A stretch of DNA of 64,000 bases, taken from a virus. This document shows, one piece after another, positions 56,828 through 64,000 of this stretch. The notes beneath the pieces were generated by a model. That model did no database searches and had not been told where the DNA came from. It saw only the letters and a list, made by a program, of their open reading frames with translations. The DNA is taken from IMG/VR virus record IMGVR_UViG_3300032220_001032, positions 1 through 64,000 of that record; one strand, given 5' to 3'. Within the stretch, counting starts at the first letter, position 1; each line of letters starts with the position of its first letter. Position numbers and translations under genes: made by a program.

Positions 56828-57910
56828 TCAACCAATTGCAGGTGCAGTGAGAGCAACAGGAGTTGCTTCAATAGCAGCAAGGTCTAGTGGGAAGTTGTGT
56901 GCATTTCTTTCATGCATAACTTCAAAACCAAGGTTAGCACGATTGAGGATATCTGCCCAAGTAGGAATAACACGATTCTGACTATCAATCAATGATTGAT
57001 TAAAGTTAAAACCATTGAGGTTGAATGCCATGGTGCTAACACCAAGAGCAGCGAACCAGATACCTACAACAGGCCAAGCAGCGAGGAAGAAGTGAAGCGA
57101 ACGGGAATTGTTGAAGGAGGCATACTGGAAGATAAGACGACCAAAGTATCCATGAGCAGCAACAATATTATAAGTCTCTTCTTCTTGACCAAACTTGTAA
57201 CCATAGTTTTGTGATTCATTTTCAGTAGTCTCACGAACTAGAGAAGAGGTGACAAGAGATCCATGCATAGCAGAGAAAAGAGAACCACCGAAGACACCAG
57301 CAACTCCCAGCATGTGGAAAGGATGCATAAGAATGTTGTGTTCTGCCTGGAAAACAAGCATGTAGTTGAAAGTTCCTGAAATCCCCAAAGGCATCGCATC
57401 AGAGAAGGATCCCTGACCGAAGGGATAGACCAGAAAAACTGCGCTAGCAGCAGCAACGGGTGCTGAGTAGGCAACACAAATCCAAGGACGCATACCAAGT
57501 CTGTAAGAAAGTTCCCATTCACGACCCATGTATGCATAGATTCCAATCAGAAAGTGGAATACAACCAGTTGAAATGGTCCACCATTATATAGCCACTCAT
57601 CAAGAGAAGCAGCTTCCCAGATGGGATAAAAGTGCAAGCCAATGGCGTTGCTTGAAGGAACTACAGCACCTGAAATGATGTTGTTTCCCCACATAAGTGA
57701 ACCAGAAACAGGTTCACGAATGCCATCGATGTCCACAGGAGGAGCACCAATGAATGCAATGATGAAACAAGTTGTTGCAGCTAGCAAACAAGGAATCATC
57801 AGTACACCAAACCAACCAACATAAAGGCGGTTGTCCGTTGAAGTAACCCACTGGCAAAACTGTTCCCAGGGATTAATAGTAGATTGTCTTTGAGCAATTG
57901 TAGCAGTCAT
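56828..57910 (-). CDS. psbA: Photosystem II D1 protein
   Basis: 360 aa, uninterrupted. Numbering is +1 relative to plant D1. TyrZ is Y162, and manganese ligands D171, E190, H333, E334, H338, D343 and the Ala345 processing site (PLDLA^AIEAT) are present. H199, H216 and H273 (chlorophyll/iron ligands) are present too. E131 (classical E130) is the high-light D1 form. Phage D1 replaces damaged host D1 so that photosynthesis supports phage growth. It stands alone between its own promoters and terminator. There is no intron. Confidence 0.97.
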
Positions 57911-58469: not shown

Positions 58470-58919
58470 ATGAAGAAAGTACTATTAATTCTTTCATCAT
58501 TATTCTTAGTTAATCCTTTAAGTGCTGCTGAAATTACATCAAGAATAACTGACTCTGTACAACTTAAGGTTGATGCTGCAGCTTCACAAGCAATCAGAGT
58601 TGGAGGTCAGTACTCCGTCTCAGGAACAAATATTCAATCTTCTACATTTGGTGGTGTAGGTGGTGCTGGAACTTATAGCATTAATACTGCTGGTCAAGCA
58701 TTTACATTTTCAGAAAGTATAATTGATGCAGATACCACTCCTGCATCTGTATCAACTGGAGCAATTGCACCTTATGGAAATATTACCTCTACTGCTGCTG
58801 GTTCTGCTGGAAGCCTTGCTGGTTCTCTGTCAGGGACTGGGGTTCCTACAGTAACTGCTGGTGGTGCTGGAACCAGTGCAACTGCACAACGTAGTATTGA
58901 ACTGAGCGTATTTAAATGA
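58470..58919 (+). CDS. Exported Gly/Ala/Ser/Thr-rich protein (149 aa)
   Basis: MKKVLLILSSLFLVNPLSAA is a classical Sec signal peptide, with cleavage after SAA. The mature part is low-complexity and beta-like ('GGQYSVSGTNIQSSTFGGVG'). It would be exported through the host inner membrane. It is followed by an ATGA-linked second exported gene. The role is unknown; cell-envelope change or lysis helper are possibilities. Confidence 0.65.
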   Translation: MKKVLLILSSLFLVNPLSAAEITSRITDSVQLKVDAAASQAIRVGGQYSVSGTNIQSSTFGGVGGAGTYSINTAGQAFTFSESIIDADTTPASVSTGAIAPYGNITSTAAGSAGSLAGSLSGTGVPTVTAGGAGTSATAQRSIELSVFK

Positions 58920-59278
58920 AACATATAACTCCCGTCTTGCTGCTTGCAGCGGGATTTATATCTCCCTGTTATGCAGAGCAAGTTGTTCCTAACTTCACCA
59001 GAGGAACCATCACAGCAACCACAGAATCAACTACAAGAATTGTAGAATCAATTCGTCAGATTGAATATACAACTGGCACATCTTATACTGTAACTGGAAC
59101 AAACATTAACATTCCTGGCACTCCAGCCCCTGGAGCAAATTACACCATCCAAACCCAAGGTGCTCCATTCCAGTTCAGTGAAACTTACCTTGGACCTGGA
59201 GTGGCAAAAGAAACATGGATAGATCGAACTACAGAATCAACCTCTGTTACAAACTCGGTGTCTGTCTTTACTCAATGA
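58916..59278 (+). CDS. Exported small protein (120 aa)
   Basis: MKHITPVLLLAAGFISPCYA is a Sec signal peptide, with cleavage after CYA. The mature part is Thr-rich beta ('TGTSYTVTGTNINIPGTPAP', 'PFQFSETYLGPGVAKETWID') and shares the 'VSGTNI/VTGTNI' and 'FTFSE/FQFSE' blocks with 58470-58919, so the two are diverged paralogues. The function is unknown. Confidence 0.65.
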   Translation: MKHITPVLLLAAGFISPCYAEQVVPNFTRGTITATTESTTRIVESIRQIEYTTGTSYTVTGTNINIPGTPAPGANYTIQTQGAPFQFSETYLGPGVAKETWIDRTTESTSVTNSVSVFTQ

Positions 59279-59760
59279 TGTTGCCAGCAATGGCACAGCA
59301 AGCACCATCAAATACAAACATAGCAGGACCTTCTGCATCTGCAACTGGAAATGTAACAAACCAGGCAGTTCAGGTGTTGCAAGGTCCTTATGCTGTAAAC
59401 ACTTATGGTAATGGAGTTTCTTGTCAAGGTCCAACATTAAGTGTTGCTCCATTTGTTTTAGCTACTGGAAATGGAAATGATGATCCAGAAAGTTTTAAAT
59501 CATATAGTGGAAATGCTGGAATTAGTATGGGGTTTAATTTTCCCTTAGATGGATCATTACAGGAACTTTGTAAAGAAAGAGCAAGAACAGAAATTGCTAG
59601 ACAAAATGCAGAAGCAGCAAAAGCAAGACTTGATTTTGAATTAGTAAGATTGTTAAAGTGTGGTGAAGCGATTAAGGGTGGAATATCTTTTCATCCAGAT
59701 TCTCCCTATGCAAAAGTTTGTGCTGATGTAGTAGTGAGATACCCACAAGCTTCTAAATAA
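59215..59760 (+). CDS. Exported protein with overlapping signal peptide (181 aa)
   Basis: From ATG 59215, residues 10-27 'LCYKLGVCLYSMMLPAMA' then QQ form a signal peptide ending AMA. It is read in a different frame over the last 64 nt of the upstream gene. An alternative ATG at 59275 (overlapping TGA) would leave only a very short leader. The mature part is Gly/Asn-rich, then a helical 'KERARTEIARQNAEAAKARL' and ends 'VVVRYPQASK'. The function is unknown. Confidence 0.6.
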   Translation: MDRSNYRINLCYKLGVCLYSMMLPAMAQQAPSNTNIAGPSASATGNVTNQAVQVLQGPYAVNTYGNGVSCQGPTLSVAPFVLATGNGNDDPESFKSYSGNAGISMGFNFPLDGSLQELCKERARTEIARQNAEAAKARLDFELVRLLKCGEAIKGGISFHPDSPYAKVCADVVVRYPQASK

Positions 59761-60787: not shown

Positions 60788-60935
60788 ACTATTAATTCTC
60801 ATGAGACTCCTAACTCATGATGGAATAATGTTAGACAAAAGAAGACCTCTCCCCAAAAGACAACCACCAGAAGTGATTAGATTTATCAGAAGACCAGCAA
60901 AAAAGGGAAGAAAAATATTTTATTATTTTGAGTGA
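60768..60935 (+). CDS. Small basic protein (55 aa)
   Basis: ATG at 60768 with AGGAG just upstream, TGA at 60935. It starts MKTVIVELLILMRLLTHDGI; the rest is rich in Arg/Lys/Pro (LDKRRPLPKRQPPEVIRFIR). It overlaps the nuclease by 20 nt and meets the minus-strand gene tail to tail by 13 nt. The function is unknown. Confidence 0.55.
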   Translation: MKTVIVELLILMRLLTHDGIMLDKRRPLPKRQPPEVIRFIRRPAKKGRKIFYYFE

Positions 60936-61678
60936 AACTTCTTGTATTGTTCTTTCTTTTCTTTCTTCTGTTCTTTCTTGAGTAACTTATTGACTTTCTT
61001 GAGAGACTGACTTTTTTCAAAAGCAAAGAATATCTGAAGTTCATAAGGGGTAAGATCCTTGCTAAGAAGTTTCTTACCCCTTACAAATAGTTGTTCTACT
61101 ATAGGTTTCATTCTCTTTACCATCCATTCCACCAAAGATTTGCCAATAAGAGCCGCAGCAACAGAAGCAGTAGCAGTGGTGCCAGCAAGTATAACCTGTT
61201 CTTTTGGAGGAATTGGAACTTGTCCAATGATAGGCACTTCAATGACTGGAACTCCTAGGTTATTAGTTTGTGTATCTTGATTGGGAACAACCAGATTATC
61301 CTGGGGGGGTTGAATAAGTTGGGGAAGTTGAGGGGTAGGGGTATCTGGAAGTCCTCTGGGTTTTTCTTCTTTCCCTTCTTGTTCTTTTTGCTTTTCTGCC
61401 TTTACTGCCGCATCAAATTCTTCCTGTGTTGGAACATTAATCACAGGATATTTTATAGAAGGGTCTGGTGCTTGAAATATAGGAAGTGCCAGACCCCTTG
61501 TTATAGGGAACTCAAACTTCTGAGCGGGTAGTTGCTCTACTGTAGTCTGGGGAATCCCCTGGATCACAGTTGGGGCAACCTGCTGTTGAGGTATCTGAGA
61601 CTGCAATATCTGCTGGAGGTTCTGGTTCTGGAGTGGGCTCAACTGCTGTGACTGCAGGTTCGGGATCTCGTTTGGCAT
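60923..61678 (-). CDS. Gln/Pro-rich structural-like protein (251 aa)
   Basis: It starts MPNEIPNLQSQQLSPLQNQN. The N-terminal ~70 residues are Gln/Pro-rich, 'IGQVPIPPKEQVILAGTTAT' leads into a membrane-like Ala-rich helix, and the C-terminus is Lys-rich (KKVNKLLKKEQKKEKKEQYK). Its first ~165 nt overlap the 3' end of the upstream gene in another frame. It is probably a virion or membrane protein. No family is recognised. Confidence 0.6.
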   Translation of the reverse strand: MPNEIPNLQSQQLSPLQNQNLQQILQSQIPQQQVAPTVIQGIPQTTVEQLPAQKFEFPITRGLALPIFQAPDPSIKYPVINVPTQEEFDAAVKAEKQKEQEGKEEKPRGLPDTPTPQLPQLIQPPQDNLVVPNQDTQTNNLGVPVIEVPIIGQVPIPPKEQVILAGTTATASVAAALIGKSLVEWMVKRMKPIVEQLFVRGKKLLSKDLTPYELQIFFAFEKSQSLKKVNKLLKKEQKKEKKEQYKKFHSK

Positions 61679-61877
61679 CCTCTGGTCCTTCTTTCTTCAT
61701 GGTATTAATGCCAAAAGTTGCTGCAGATGCAGTAAACACTGTAGCAATAAAAGTTGGGTCCATCTTTGAAAGCATACCAGCATAGCTAGCTGTTAACAAA
61801 GCAGCACTCCAACTCAAAATGGCAATACGAATAACTTGTCCCATAGCTCTTTCTTTTTTATTTAATGAATCAGCCAT
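61512..61877 (-). CDS. Two-TM small protein, holin-like layout (121 aa)
   Basis: It starts MADSLNKKERAMGQVIRIAI. Two spans (VIRIAILSWSAALLTASYAG and DPTFIATVFTASAATFGINT) are followed by a charged Pro/Glu-rich tail with CPNC. The two-TM plus charged tail layout is holin-like, but no family is recognised and the tail is long. Its last 167 nt double as the start of the downstream gene. Confidence 0.55.
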   Translation of the reverse strand: MADSLNKKERAMGQVIRIAILSWSAALLTASYAGMLSKMDPTFIATVFTASAATFGINTMKKEGPEDAKRDPEPAVTAVEPTPEPEPPADIAVSDTSTAGCPNCDPGDSPDYSRATTRSEV

Positions 61878-61935: not shown

Positions 61936-64000
61936 TTAGAACCTAAATTTAACCTTTCCTGCAATTGAGTTGGTTGTAACACCATCACTTAAACCATGAG
62001 ATCCCTCAATAAATAACACTTCTTTATAATCTACTGATGCTGTAACTCCATAAGAACTATCAGTACCATAAGCACCTTCTACACTAACACCAAAGAGATT
62101 GTTTTTCTTGCCTCCAAACCTGGTTTCAAGTTTGAGACCCGCTTCACCAACGTGTGTAGTTTGATTAAACTCACCAACACTTCTTGCAGACTGAATAGAA
62201 CCAGTTTCATTGTAAGCATTTCGTCTTACATTTTGAACAGTATATCCAATAAATGGATGTAACCATTTTGCAAGATGTAAATAAAGACGATTACTTACCC
62301 ACCACTCAGTTCCAGATGTTTCGCCAGCATTATTAAAGACACCTTCTACTGTTCTGTTGTACTTATAGTTGCTGTTTGCAATTGCAGCATTTGTATTCAG
62401 AGTGAGTGTATTACCTCTCAATTCACTGAATACACCAAAGTGATCTTTAGTCTGTTGTGTACTTGAGTCAACACCATTAAGGTTTATGTTGACTCTATTA
62501 TACTGGAAACCAACAGTCCAACCTTTGGTTGCATCAAACTCAAATCCACCACCGAAGATCTTGGAATCAGCAGTATATCCATCAGCATTATAGGACTGAA
62601 CGAATCTGTTGTTCTCAAATACTCTTAATCTTTGCTTACCTGCGGTTGGTTCGTGATTCAGAAGTCCATTGATACCATCATTGATTCCATCAAGAACTTC
62701 TAACTGATCTACACGACCAAAGTAGTAATCATAAGAATCAGATACCGCAACAGATTCAGATGATGTATAAGTATATGTTGGTGTTCCGTCGATTACGGTT
62801 GTTGTACCATCAGCATAAACAGTTGTGGTGACTGGAGTTGTAGTTGTAGTCGTAACCATTGGAGTGGTTACAGTTGTCACCATTTGCTTTTTGATTTGTT
62901 GTTTCCCACTAGATTCACTTGCTTCAAAATTATATGCTTTAGTTGTAACTGCTGGAAGTGTTTGTGATGCAGCAATTGCAGAAGAAACAGAAGGAGCAAT
63001 TGTTGATGTATAGTTCAGAACTGTTCCAGTTACTTGTGAACTTGATGTTCCGTTAGATGTGGATGTGGTTACAACTGGAGTTCCATTTGATGTGGTTGTA
63101 GAACCATCAGAATATGTGGTGGTTGTAACTGGAGTTGTAGTTGTGGTAGTTGTTGTAACTGGAGTTGTGGTTTCTACGGTATCAGTATAGTTCTGAACTA
63201 CGCCATATCCATTACCATCAAGATTGCTTACATTATAAGTAACCTGAGCTGTTACTACAACATTTGAAGTTGATGTGGATGTTGTAACTTGGTCAGATGT
63301 TGATGTCCCAGTTACTGTTGGGGTAGATGGTGTTGAGTTGTTTGGAGCATTTGGATTATTTGGAGTAACAGCACCAAATGTTTGTCCGTTTTTGAGAGTA
63401 GTTCCTGGTTGACTATCAACTAAAAGAACTGGTGATAGTGCAGTATCCCCAAGATTAAATACTGCAAAACCCAATAGATAAGTACCAGTTACATCAACTT
63501 GATAGGTTGATGATTGCCATCCAGTAGAACCATAAGTTCCCGTAGAATAATCTCCTGTTCCTGGATTAGTGAATCCCAAAAGTGCATAGTTACCAGTATA
63601 GTTATTAACTATTACATTTGGTGTAGAACCAGATCCCTGATAGACAAGAGATGTGATGGAACCATCATTGAAAGGAACATAATCAGTTCCAATATAGTTC
63701 CAAGACATTGTATAAATCGTTCCAGCATCAAGATTTACACTTTGAGTTATCCAAGCAGCATTAGTTGGATTAGGATTACCGAGTCCTGATGCTTGTTGAT
63801 CTTGCTGAAGTTTTGTTTTGATTGCTTGATTTTGAGTTTGTGTAAGTCCTAATGCAGATGTTGCTGCATCAAATGTTACATTACCCATTGGTTGCAACGC
63901 AGCACCATAAGAACCATATGGAGAGAATGTCCAAGTTGTTGGAGTTACTGCGGGTGCATAATATGGATTTGGGGATCCATCTTGTTTAGTTGGACTTCCT
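61936..64000 (-). CDS. Large surface protein with C-terminal beta-barrel, 5' end off window
   Basis: The frame is open to the right edge ('GSPNPYYAPAVTPTTWTFSP' upstream of ATG 63888), so the N-terminus is missing; 688 residues are seen. A beta-sandwich domain ('DAGTIYTMSWNYIGTDYVPF') is followed by a Thr/Ser-rich linker with 'TTTTTTPVTTTTYSDGS' blocks in two clusters. The last ~250 residues alternate strands ('TVGFQYNRVNINLNGVDSST') and end in 'KVKFRF' with a terminal Phe, as in outer-membrane beta-barrels and autotransporters. It is probably a virion or host-envelope protein. It is very unusual for a phage. Confidence 0.65.
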   Translation of the reverse strand, partial: GSPTKQDGSPNPYYAPAVTPTTWTFSPYGSYGAALQPMGNVTFDAATSALGLTQTQNQAIKTKLQQDQQASGLGNPNPTNAAWITQSVNLDAGTIYTMSWNYIGTDYVPFNDGSITSLVYQGSGSTPNVIVNNYTGNYALLGFTNPGTGDYSTGTYGSTGWQSSTYQVDVTGTYLLGFAVFNLGDTALSPVLLVDSQPGTTLKNGQTFGAVTPNNPNAPNNSTPSTPTVTGTSTSDQVTTSTSTSNVVVTAQVTYNVSNLDGNGYGVVQNYTDTVETTTPVTTTTTTTTPVTTTTYSDGSTTTSNGTPVVTTSTSNGTSSSQVTGTVLNYTSTIAPSVSSAIAASQTLPAVTTKAYNFEASESSGKQQIKKQMVTTVTTPMVTTTTTTPVTTTVYADGTTTVIDGTPTYTYTSSESVAVSDSYDYYFGRVDQLEVLDGINDGINGLLNHEPTAGKQRLRVFENNRFVQSYNADGYTADSKIFGGGFEFDATKGWTVGFQYNRVNINLNGVDSSTQQTKDHFGVFSELRGNTLTLNTNAAIANSNYKYNRTVEGVFNNAGETSGTEWWVSNRLYLHLAKWLHPFIGYTVQNVRRNAYNETGSIQSARSVGEFNQTTHVGEAGLKLETRFGGKKNNLFGVSVEGAYGTDSSYGVTASVDYKEVLFIEGSHGLSDGVTTNSIAGKVKFRF

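Follow-up and report, generated by a model that had tools for sequence, protein, structure and literature searches.

The minus-strand gene whose stop codon lies at 61936-61938 of the analysed DNA encodes a classical type Va autotransporter, carried here by a cyanomyovirus. The window, which is the whole stretch of DNA that was analysed, covers 64,000 bases of an IMG/VR virus record (IMGVR_UViG_3300032220_001032) that is 65,162 bases long. It has a psbA gene at 56828-57910 and its region is syntenic with the Synechococcus phages DSL-LC02 and DSL-LC03 (Kyanoviridae), so the record is taken to be a freshwater-type cyanomyovirus. The architecture of the protein and established autotransporter biology make it very likely that its N-terminal head would be displayed late on the surface of the infected cell, and the best reading, to which we give a probability of about 0.5, is that this is an adhesin-type head displayed for adhesion or aggregation. 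The protein is not categorically new, because the secretion type is known and viral autotransporter annotations are already in databases; what is new is the lytic-phage setting, the fixed locus beside the endolysin, the swapping of heads and the cousins in curli operons, of which no description exists in the literature searched.

The open reading frame runs on beyond base 64000, so that 61936..64000 holds residues 79-765 and the stop codon, and the last 1,162 bases of the record (L002) supply the missing 5’ end with an ATG at record position 64233. The complete frame is intact and has 765 amino acids. The first-pass annotation had proposed a phage-encoded autotransporter-like surface protein and had named a signal peptide in the missing N-terminus and a barrel model as ways to check it. 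The recovered N-terminus, MSYATRALAVASALLMGAPTATFA/DTISG, is a typical Sec signal peptide (residues 1-24), as judged from the n, h and c regions and an AxA-like site in the sequence, and it is conserved among relatives with an intact 5’ end. It is followed by the head, M1 (residues 26-300 approximately; in-window part 63334..64000, minus strand), which is exchangeable with other heads, M2 or M3, in relatives, and by a Thr-rich stalk (residues 301-500 approximately; 62734..63333, minus strand), which is built of repeated TTTTTTPVTTTxYxDGTTT units. The beta-rich head and the Thr-rich linkers described earlier are present in the protein. The autotransporter beta-domain (residues 501-765; 61939..62733, minus strand) has a helix (residues 510-525; 62659..62706, minus strand; helix 40-55 of the modelled fragment), in the position that the pore helix takes in classical autotransporters, just ahead of 12 strands that end in KVKFRF at Phe765.

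Pfam, AlphaFold and Foldseek agree on the class of this domain. When the C-terminal 264 residues are queried alone, they match PF03797 at E=3.1e-13 with 50.5 bits, against a curated cut-off of 26, and 17 of 21 homologous barrels match the same model, the best of them at 1e-17. The full-length protein has no Pfam match at E<=1, presumably an effect of the Thr-rich stalk on the score, and none among the PHROGs. The AlphaFold2 model built from 39 aligned barrels shows a single helix and then 12 strands, with a mean pLDDT of 74.5 (72-94 in most core blocks) and a pTM of 0.69, while the model of the full-length protein (pLDDT 37) is too poor for use. In Foldseek, every one of the top 18 PDB matches of the barrel model is an autotransporter domain, with NalP first (E=4e-10, TM 0.67-0.72), and the final Phe is invariant across 21 aligned barrels. 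A PDB sequence search with the barrel profile finds EstA alone, and weakly (E=0.12); the same search with the head finds no match. The signal peptide, the PF03797 match and the barrel model therefore all bear out the autotransporter-like surface protein first proposed.

The protein shares with classical type Va autotransporters, such as NalP, EstA, EspP, BrkA and AIDA-I, the signal peptide, the N-terminal passenger, the helix and the 12-strand barrel ending in Phe, as well as the PF03797 domain and the best fold matches in the PDB. It differs from them in being encoded by lytic T4-like cyanophages in a fixed slot beside the endolysin, in carrying compact heads on a low-complexity stalk, where the classical proteins have a long beta-helix, and in having a barrel for which no close bacterial relative was found. 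It is not of the trimeric YadA type (Vc), since the YadA anchor has no Pfam match in it and the 12 strands lie in one chain.

What is conserved and traded in this family is the head, while the anchor varies. Among 61 complete open reading frames, all on one barrel family, 28 carry M2, 24 carry M1 and 9 carry M3 heads, which have no detectable similarity to each other. The barrel tree calls for at least 14 head changes where 2 would be sufficient, a sign that variety of heads is under selection; the figure of 14 could be too high if the barrel itself has recombined, but this would again be an exchange of modules. In a second barrel type, B, a Pro-Thr-Glu repeat replaces the Thr-rich stalk and the head is M1 in all the examples seen. 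M1 is also found on a barrel with its own PF03797 match (locus L073, E=3.6e-19), on Phe-ending C-termini that do not match PF03797 (L074-L078) and on a non-barrel, membrane-type anchor in a phage contig that also encodes a C-family DNA polymerase (L051:9929-12065). There it is joined to an actinobacterial-looking Thr-rich stalk and to hydrophobic segments at the C-terminus, and a frameshift splits the gene. These differing C-termini indicate that the head is kept, rather than one particular barrel. Bacterial relatives of M1, present in seven MAGs, are secreted, and several have C-terminal sorting or membrane segments. M1 scores 27.9 bits (E=1.6e-6) against NF038132, below the NCBIfam cut-off of 90 bits, and is at most a distant relative of that family. 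The phage record that carries one of the M1-head proteins (L075) also encodes, at L151:13348-14715, a secreted protein that looks by eye like an alphaproteobacterial porin and has no PHROG match.

Curli are adhesive surface amyloids, and homologs of the cyanophage autotransporter lie inside curli operons of other phages. Locus L072, whose record includes a T4-type gp32 gene, shows the order csgF, M1 autotransporter, csgG, curlin-repeat gene and FecR gene (Pfam), and its barrel is homologous to the cyanophage barrel over the whole length (hhalign probability 99.4, E=3.4e-21). Locus L073 has csgF, csgG, a curlin-repeat gene, a FecR gene and a PA14/curlin-like gene, followed by an M1 autotransporter. 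A scan with the CsgG of these phages gives 22 viral loci. In nearly all of them there are also csgF, a curlin-like gene and FecR, and a CHASE2-cyclase gene is present in most. The cyanophage-type barrel is present in 7 of the 22 (hmmsearch E 1e-26 to 1e-43), a few of which may be near-duplicates, and stands between csgF and csgG in six and after FecR otherwise, an order that recurs across several records. The autotransporters of these seven loci carry M3 heads, 52-55% identical to cyanophage M3, with the exception of the M1 head of L072, and one such locus belongs to a record of 343 kb that has a T4-type major capsid gene. The operons look complete at L072:7372-14107, L073:2789-10520 and L177-L198, sometimes with a second PA14/curlin-like gene; directly upstream of the operon in L073 lie genes for a heme oxygenase and a ferredoxin-dependent bilin reductase (L073:509-1727).

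CsgG (PF03783) has no match in the window's record or in eight related cyanophage records, which are possibly incomplete, so curli are linked to the present phage by homology and not by co-occurrence. In GenBank this CsgG is found only in pelagimyophages, the Melnitz group and one Salmonella phage fragment, and the autotransporter is absent from all of these, Melnitz included. The pelagimyophage and Melnitz curli operons, which were described without CsgA or CsgB (PMC7029224, PMC9004378), share with the present protein the theme of surface adhesion and the occurrence of its homologs inside other csgF-csgG operons of phages. They differ from the loci found here, which have curlin-repeat genes and autotransporters, while the window's phage differs from both in having no CsgG match. 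The authors of the Melnitz study saw no clumping with their CsgGF-bearing phage (PMC9004378), which weighs against adhesion, although this autotransporter is missing from that phage.

The mechanism that fits best would begin late in infection, with synthesis of the autotransporter from a T4-type late promoter. Export would be by Sec. The host Bam machinery would then place the 12-strand barrel in the outer membrane, with stalk and head passing out to the cell surface, steps which we infer from established autotransporter biology. The head would act as an exchangeable binding module, related to bacterial secreted surface proteins. The infected cell, and after lysis its envelope debris, would become sticky and be tethered to neighbouring cells or matrix, which would keep new hosts near the burst. 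Adhesion as the function is suggested by gene association, and adhesion or aggregation is favoured because of the association with curli, the kinship of M1 with secreted proteins and the exchange of heads across anchors. A wider and more tentative proposal, plausible rather than probable, is that T4-like and other lytic phages have in common a mobile family of outer-membrane autotransporters that swap heads and make the surface of the dying cell an adhesive trap (“sibling capture”). In freshwater cyanophages the autotransporter would act by itself next to the endolysin, and elsewhere it would be part of complete phage curli operons. Such a role would show that lytic phages invest in the outside of a cell that is soon destroyed. 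The literature has yet to settle what curli genes do for phages that carry them, partly since no curlin subunit had been recognised (PMC7029224, PMC9004378). The loci described here bring curlin-repeat subunits and a surface autotransporter together in one operon, and in freshwater cyanophages the autotransporter is retained by itself, with swapped heads and at a fixed late locus, which makes the curli question testable with one gene.

The same display could serve instead to block superinfection or to mask debris, which is the main rival, possible but on the unlikely side. The head would cover or occupy the phage receptor, or bait competing phages, and would thereby keep further virions from adsorbing to infected cells and to lysis debris; the variety of heads would track the variety of receptors or competitors. 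Surface display and repeated head swapping fit such an arms race, and late expression beside the endolysin fits protection of the progeny from receptor-bearing debris. There are precedents, since T5 Llp masks the FhuA receptor and Llp, Lom and Cor are likewise phage-made outer-membrane or surface proteins that alter the infected cell, but these are either small lipoproteins or barrels of 8 strands, and none translocates a multidomain head. Against masking, M1 and M3 are common to very different-looking phages (cyanophages, curli phages and that of L051, with its actinobacterial-type stalk) at 50-58% identity, which is odd for a domain aimed at one receptor, and the location in curli operons points to adhesion.

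The genomic slot of the gene brings in a further alternative, a factor in lysis. Among unique barrel-bearing open reading frames with enough flanking sequence, the next gene upstream, on the same strand, is that of the endolysin in 51 of 52 loci, and the next one downstream encodes a DUF6450 (PF20048) protein in 66 of 67; the locus with neither neighbour is the curli phage L072, and cyanophage loci have no exception. In the window, the DUF6450 gene (61512..61877, minus strand) encodes a small protein with one moderately hydrophobic segment, and a phrog_9426 gene (60923..61678, minus strand) is a further downstream neighbour. ATAAATA, the core of T4-type late promoters, lies 140 nt upstream of the autotransporter gene in the window’s record, where 11 of the 20 sites with this motif are just upstream of genes (2.0 by random placement). 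The motif occurs within 230 nt in the leaders of 46 of 59 relatives, compared with 3.4 in shuffles, and part of this conservation may be coding, since in the window’s record it overlaps the endolysin stop codon. Late expression of the autotransporter is suggested by these signals.

In a lysis role, the barrel or the stalk would weaken or rupture the outer membrane after the endolysin has acted, as a spanin-like third step, and the position between endolysin and DUF6450, the late-promoter core and the role in lysis proposed by Buchholz et al. for phage CsgGF pores (PMC9004378) agree with it. Such a role is unlikely. Marine cyanomyoviruses keep DUF6450 with no endolysin or autotransporter annotated beside it (three looked at), and in curli phages the autotransporter gene is not beside the endolysin. 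Lysis would not need a head that is elaborate and swapped, and the same head is membrane-anchored in L051; rupture of the outer membrane is less likely because this elaborate head is what evolution keeps and trades.

Where the leader of a cyanophage autotransporter gene can be read, a strong hairpin nearly always precedes the gene and ends within a few bases of the ATG. In this record it lies at about 64239-64330 on the minus strand, just outside the window, and such hairpins occur in the leaders of about 40 related loci. Their energies run from -22 to -43 kcal/mol, and by sequence they form two classes. Among the 24 sequences of class A, double changes occur in 6 of 29 pairs and 98% of alignment cells pair, and none of 500 shuffles reaches any of these measures. 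The 3’ arm of class A holds a Shine-Dalgarno-like AGAGGA in most sequences, and the hairpin probably controls translation, or transcription into the gene.

That the protein is a virion component, as a fibre or a head decoration, and not an envelope protein is highly improbable: its modular heads and stalks resemble the modularity of tail fibres and the late-promoter core also favours this reading, but the signal peptide of those relatives whose 5’ end is intact, PF03797, the 12-strand fold and the invariant final Phe speak against it.

Relatives are concentrated in viruses. In a tblastn search of 50,697 GenBank phages they occur only in DSL-LC02 and DSL-LC03, with barrels 57-58% identical. The IMG/VR scan gives 48 loci with the full protein as query and, with the barrel profile, 276 candidate stretches that encode relatives, so the observation is not due to chance, although IMG/VR records may be fragments or misassembled. 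Close barrel relatives are absent from 84,980 prokaryote genomes and, in a search without a positive control, barrel relatives are absent from 386 cyanobacterial genomes. PF03797 proteins as such are present in 27 of 194 cyanobacterial genomes, and hosts of this phylum are evidently able to place such barrels. These 27 genomes are what could favour a host-derived surface gene carried as passenger DNA without phage function, the least probable explanation of all in view of the 276 viral stretches against no close bacterial relative, the fixed locus, the intact frames and the covarying leader hairpin. Among 399 genomes of the phylum of a Hydrogenophilus MAG, weak and partial barrel matches in long open reading frames of 14 genomes are read as ordinary bacterial autotransporters.

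The uncultured Caudovirales autotransporter entries A0A6J5R861, A0A6J5L9T3 and A0A6J5KUW0 are viral and have the same barrel fold, and phage DSL-LC03 has a direct relative in WJZ47857, with 58% identity over the barrel. All are known only as database annotations, and their heads, locus and link to curli are not analysed in the literature searched, which likewise yielded no published analysis of phage-encoded autotransporters of this type; the main text of the DSL-LC paper makes no mention of WJZ47857. In DSL-LC02, a 171-amino-acid protein with a barrel-like look is encoded directly downstream of the autotransporter (L004:12911-13423), and it is not homologous to the barrel.

Three small secreted proteins are encoded on the plus strand at 58470-59760 (from 58440 if their ATAAATA element is included). 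They match phrog_564, phrog_650/DUF6322 and phrog_848/1755, and the first two share a YSVSGTNI/YTVTGTNI motif. The first-pass annotation had joined them with the autotransporter in an envelope-remodelling set. The genes are real and their products have hydrophobic N-termini, but the grouping does not hold: they lie on the opposite strand, have an ATAAATA element of their own 24 nt upstream and belong to a core cyanophage block, so they are not to be counted in the autotransporter system. They have no blast match among the genes of the curli loci, homologs of the third occur in 461 cyanophage records, nearly all of which lack the autotransporter, and antiparallel genes stand at the position of the trio in two of the three marine cyanomyoviruses looked at. 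By position, the real partners of the autotransporter are the endolysin and DUF6450 and, in other phages, the curli genes.
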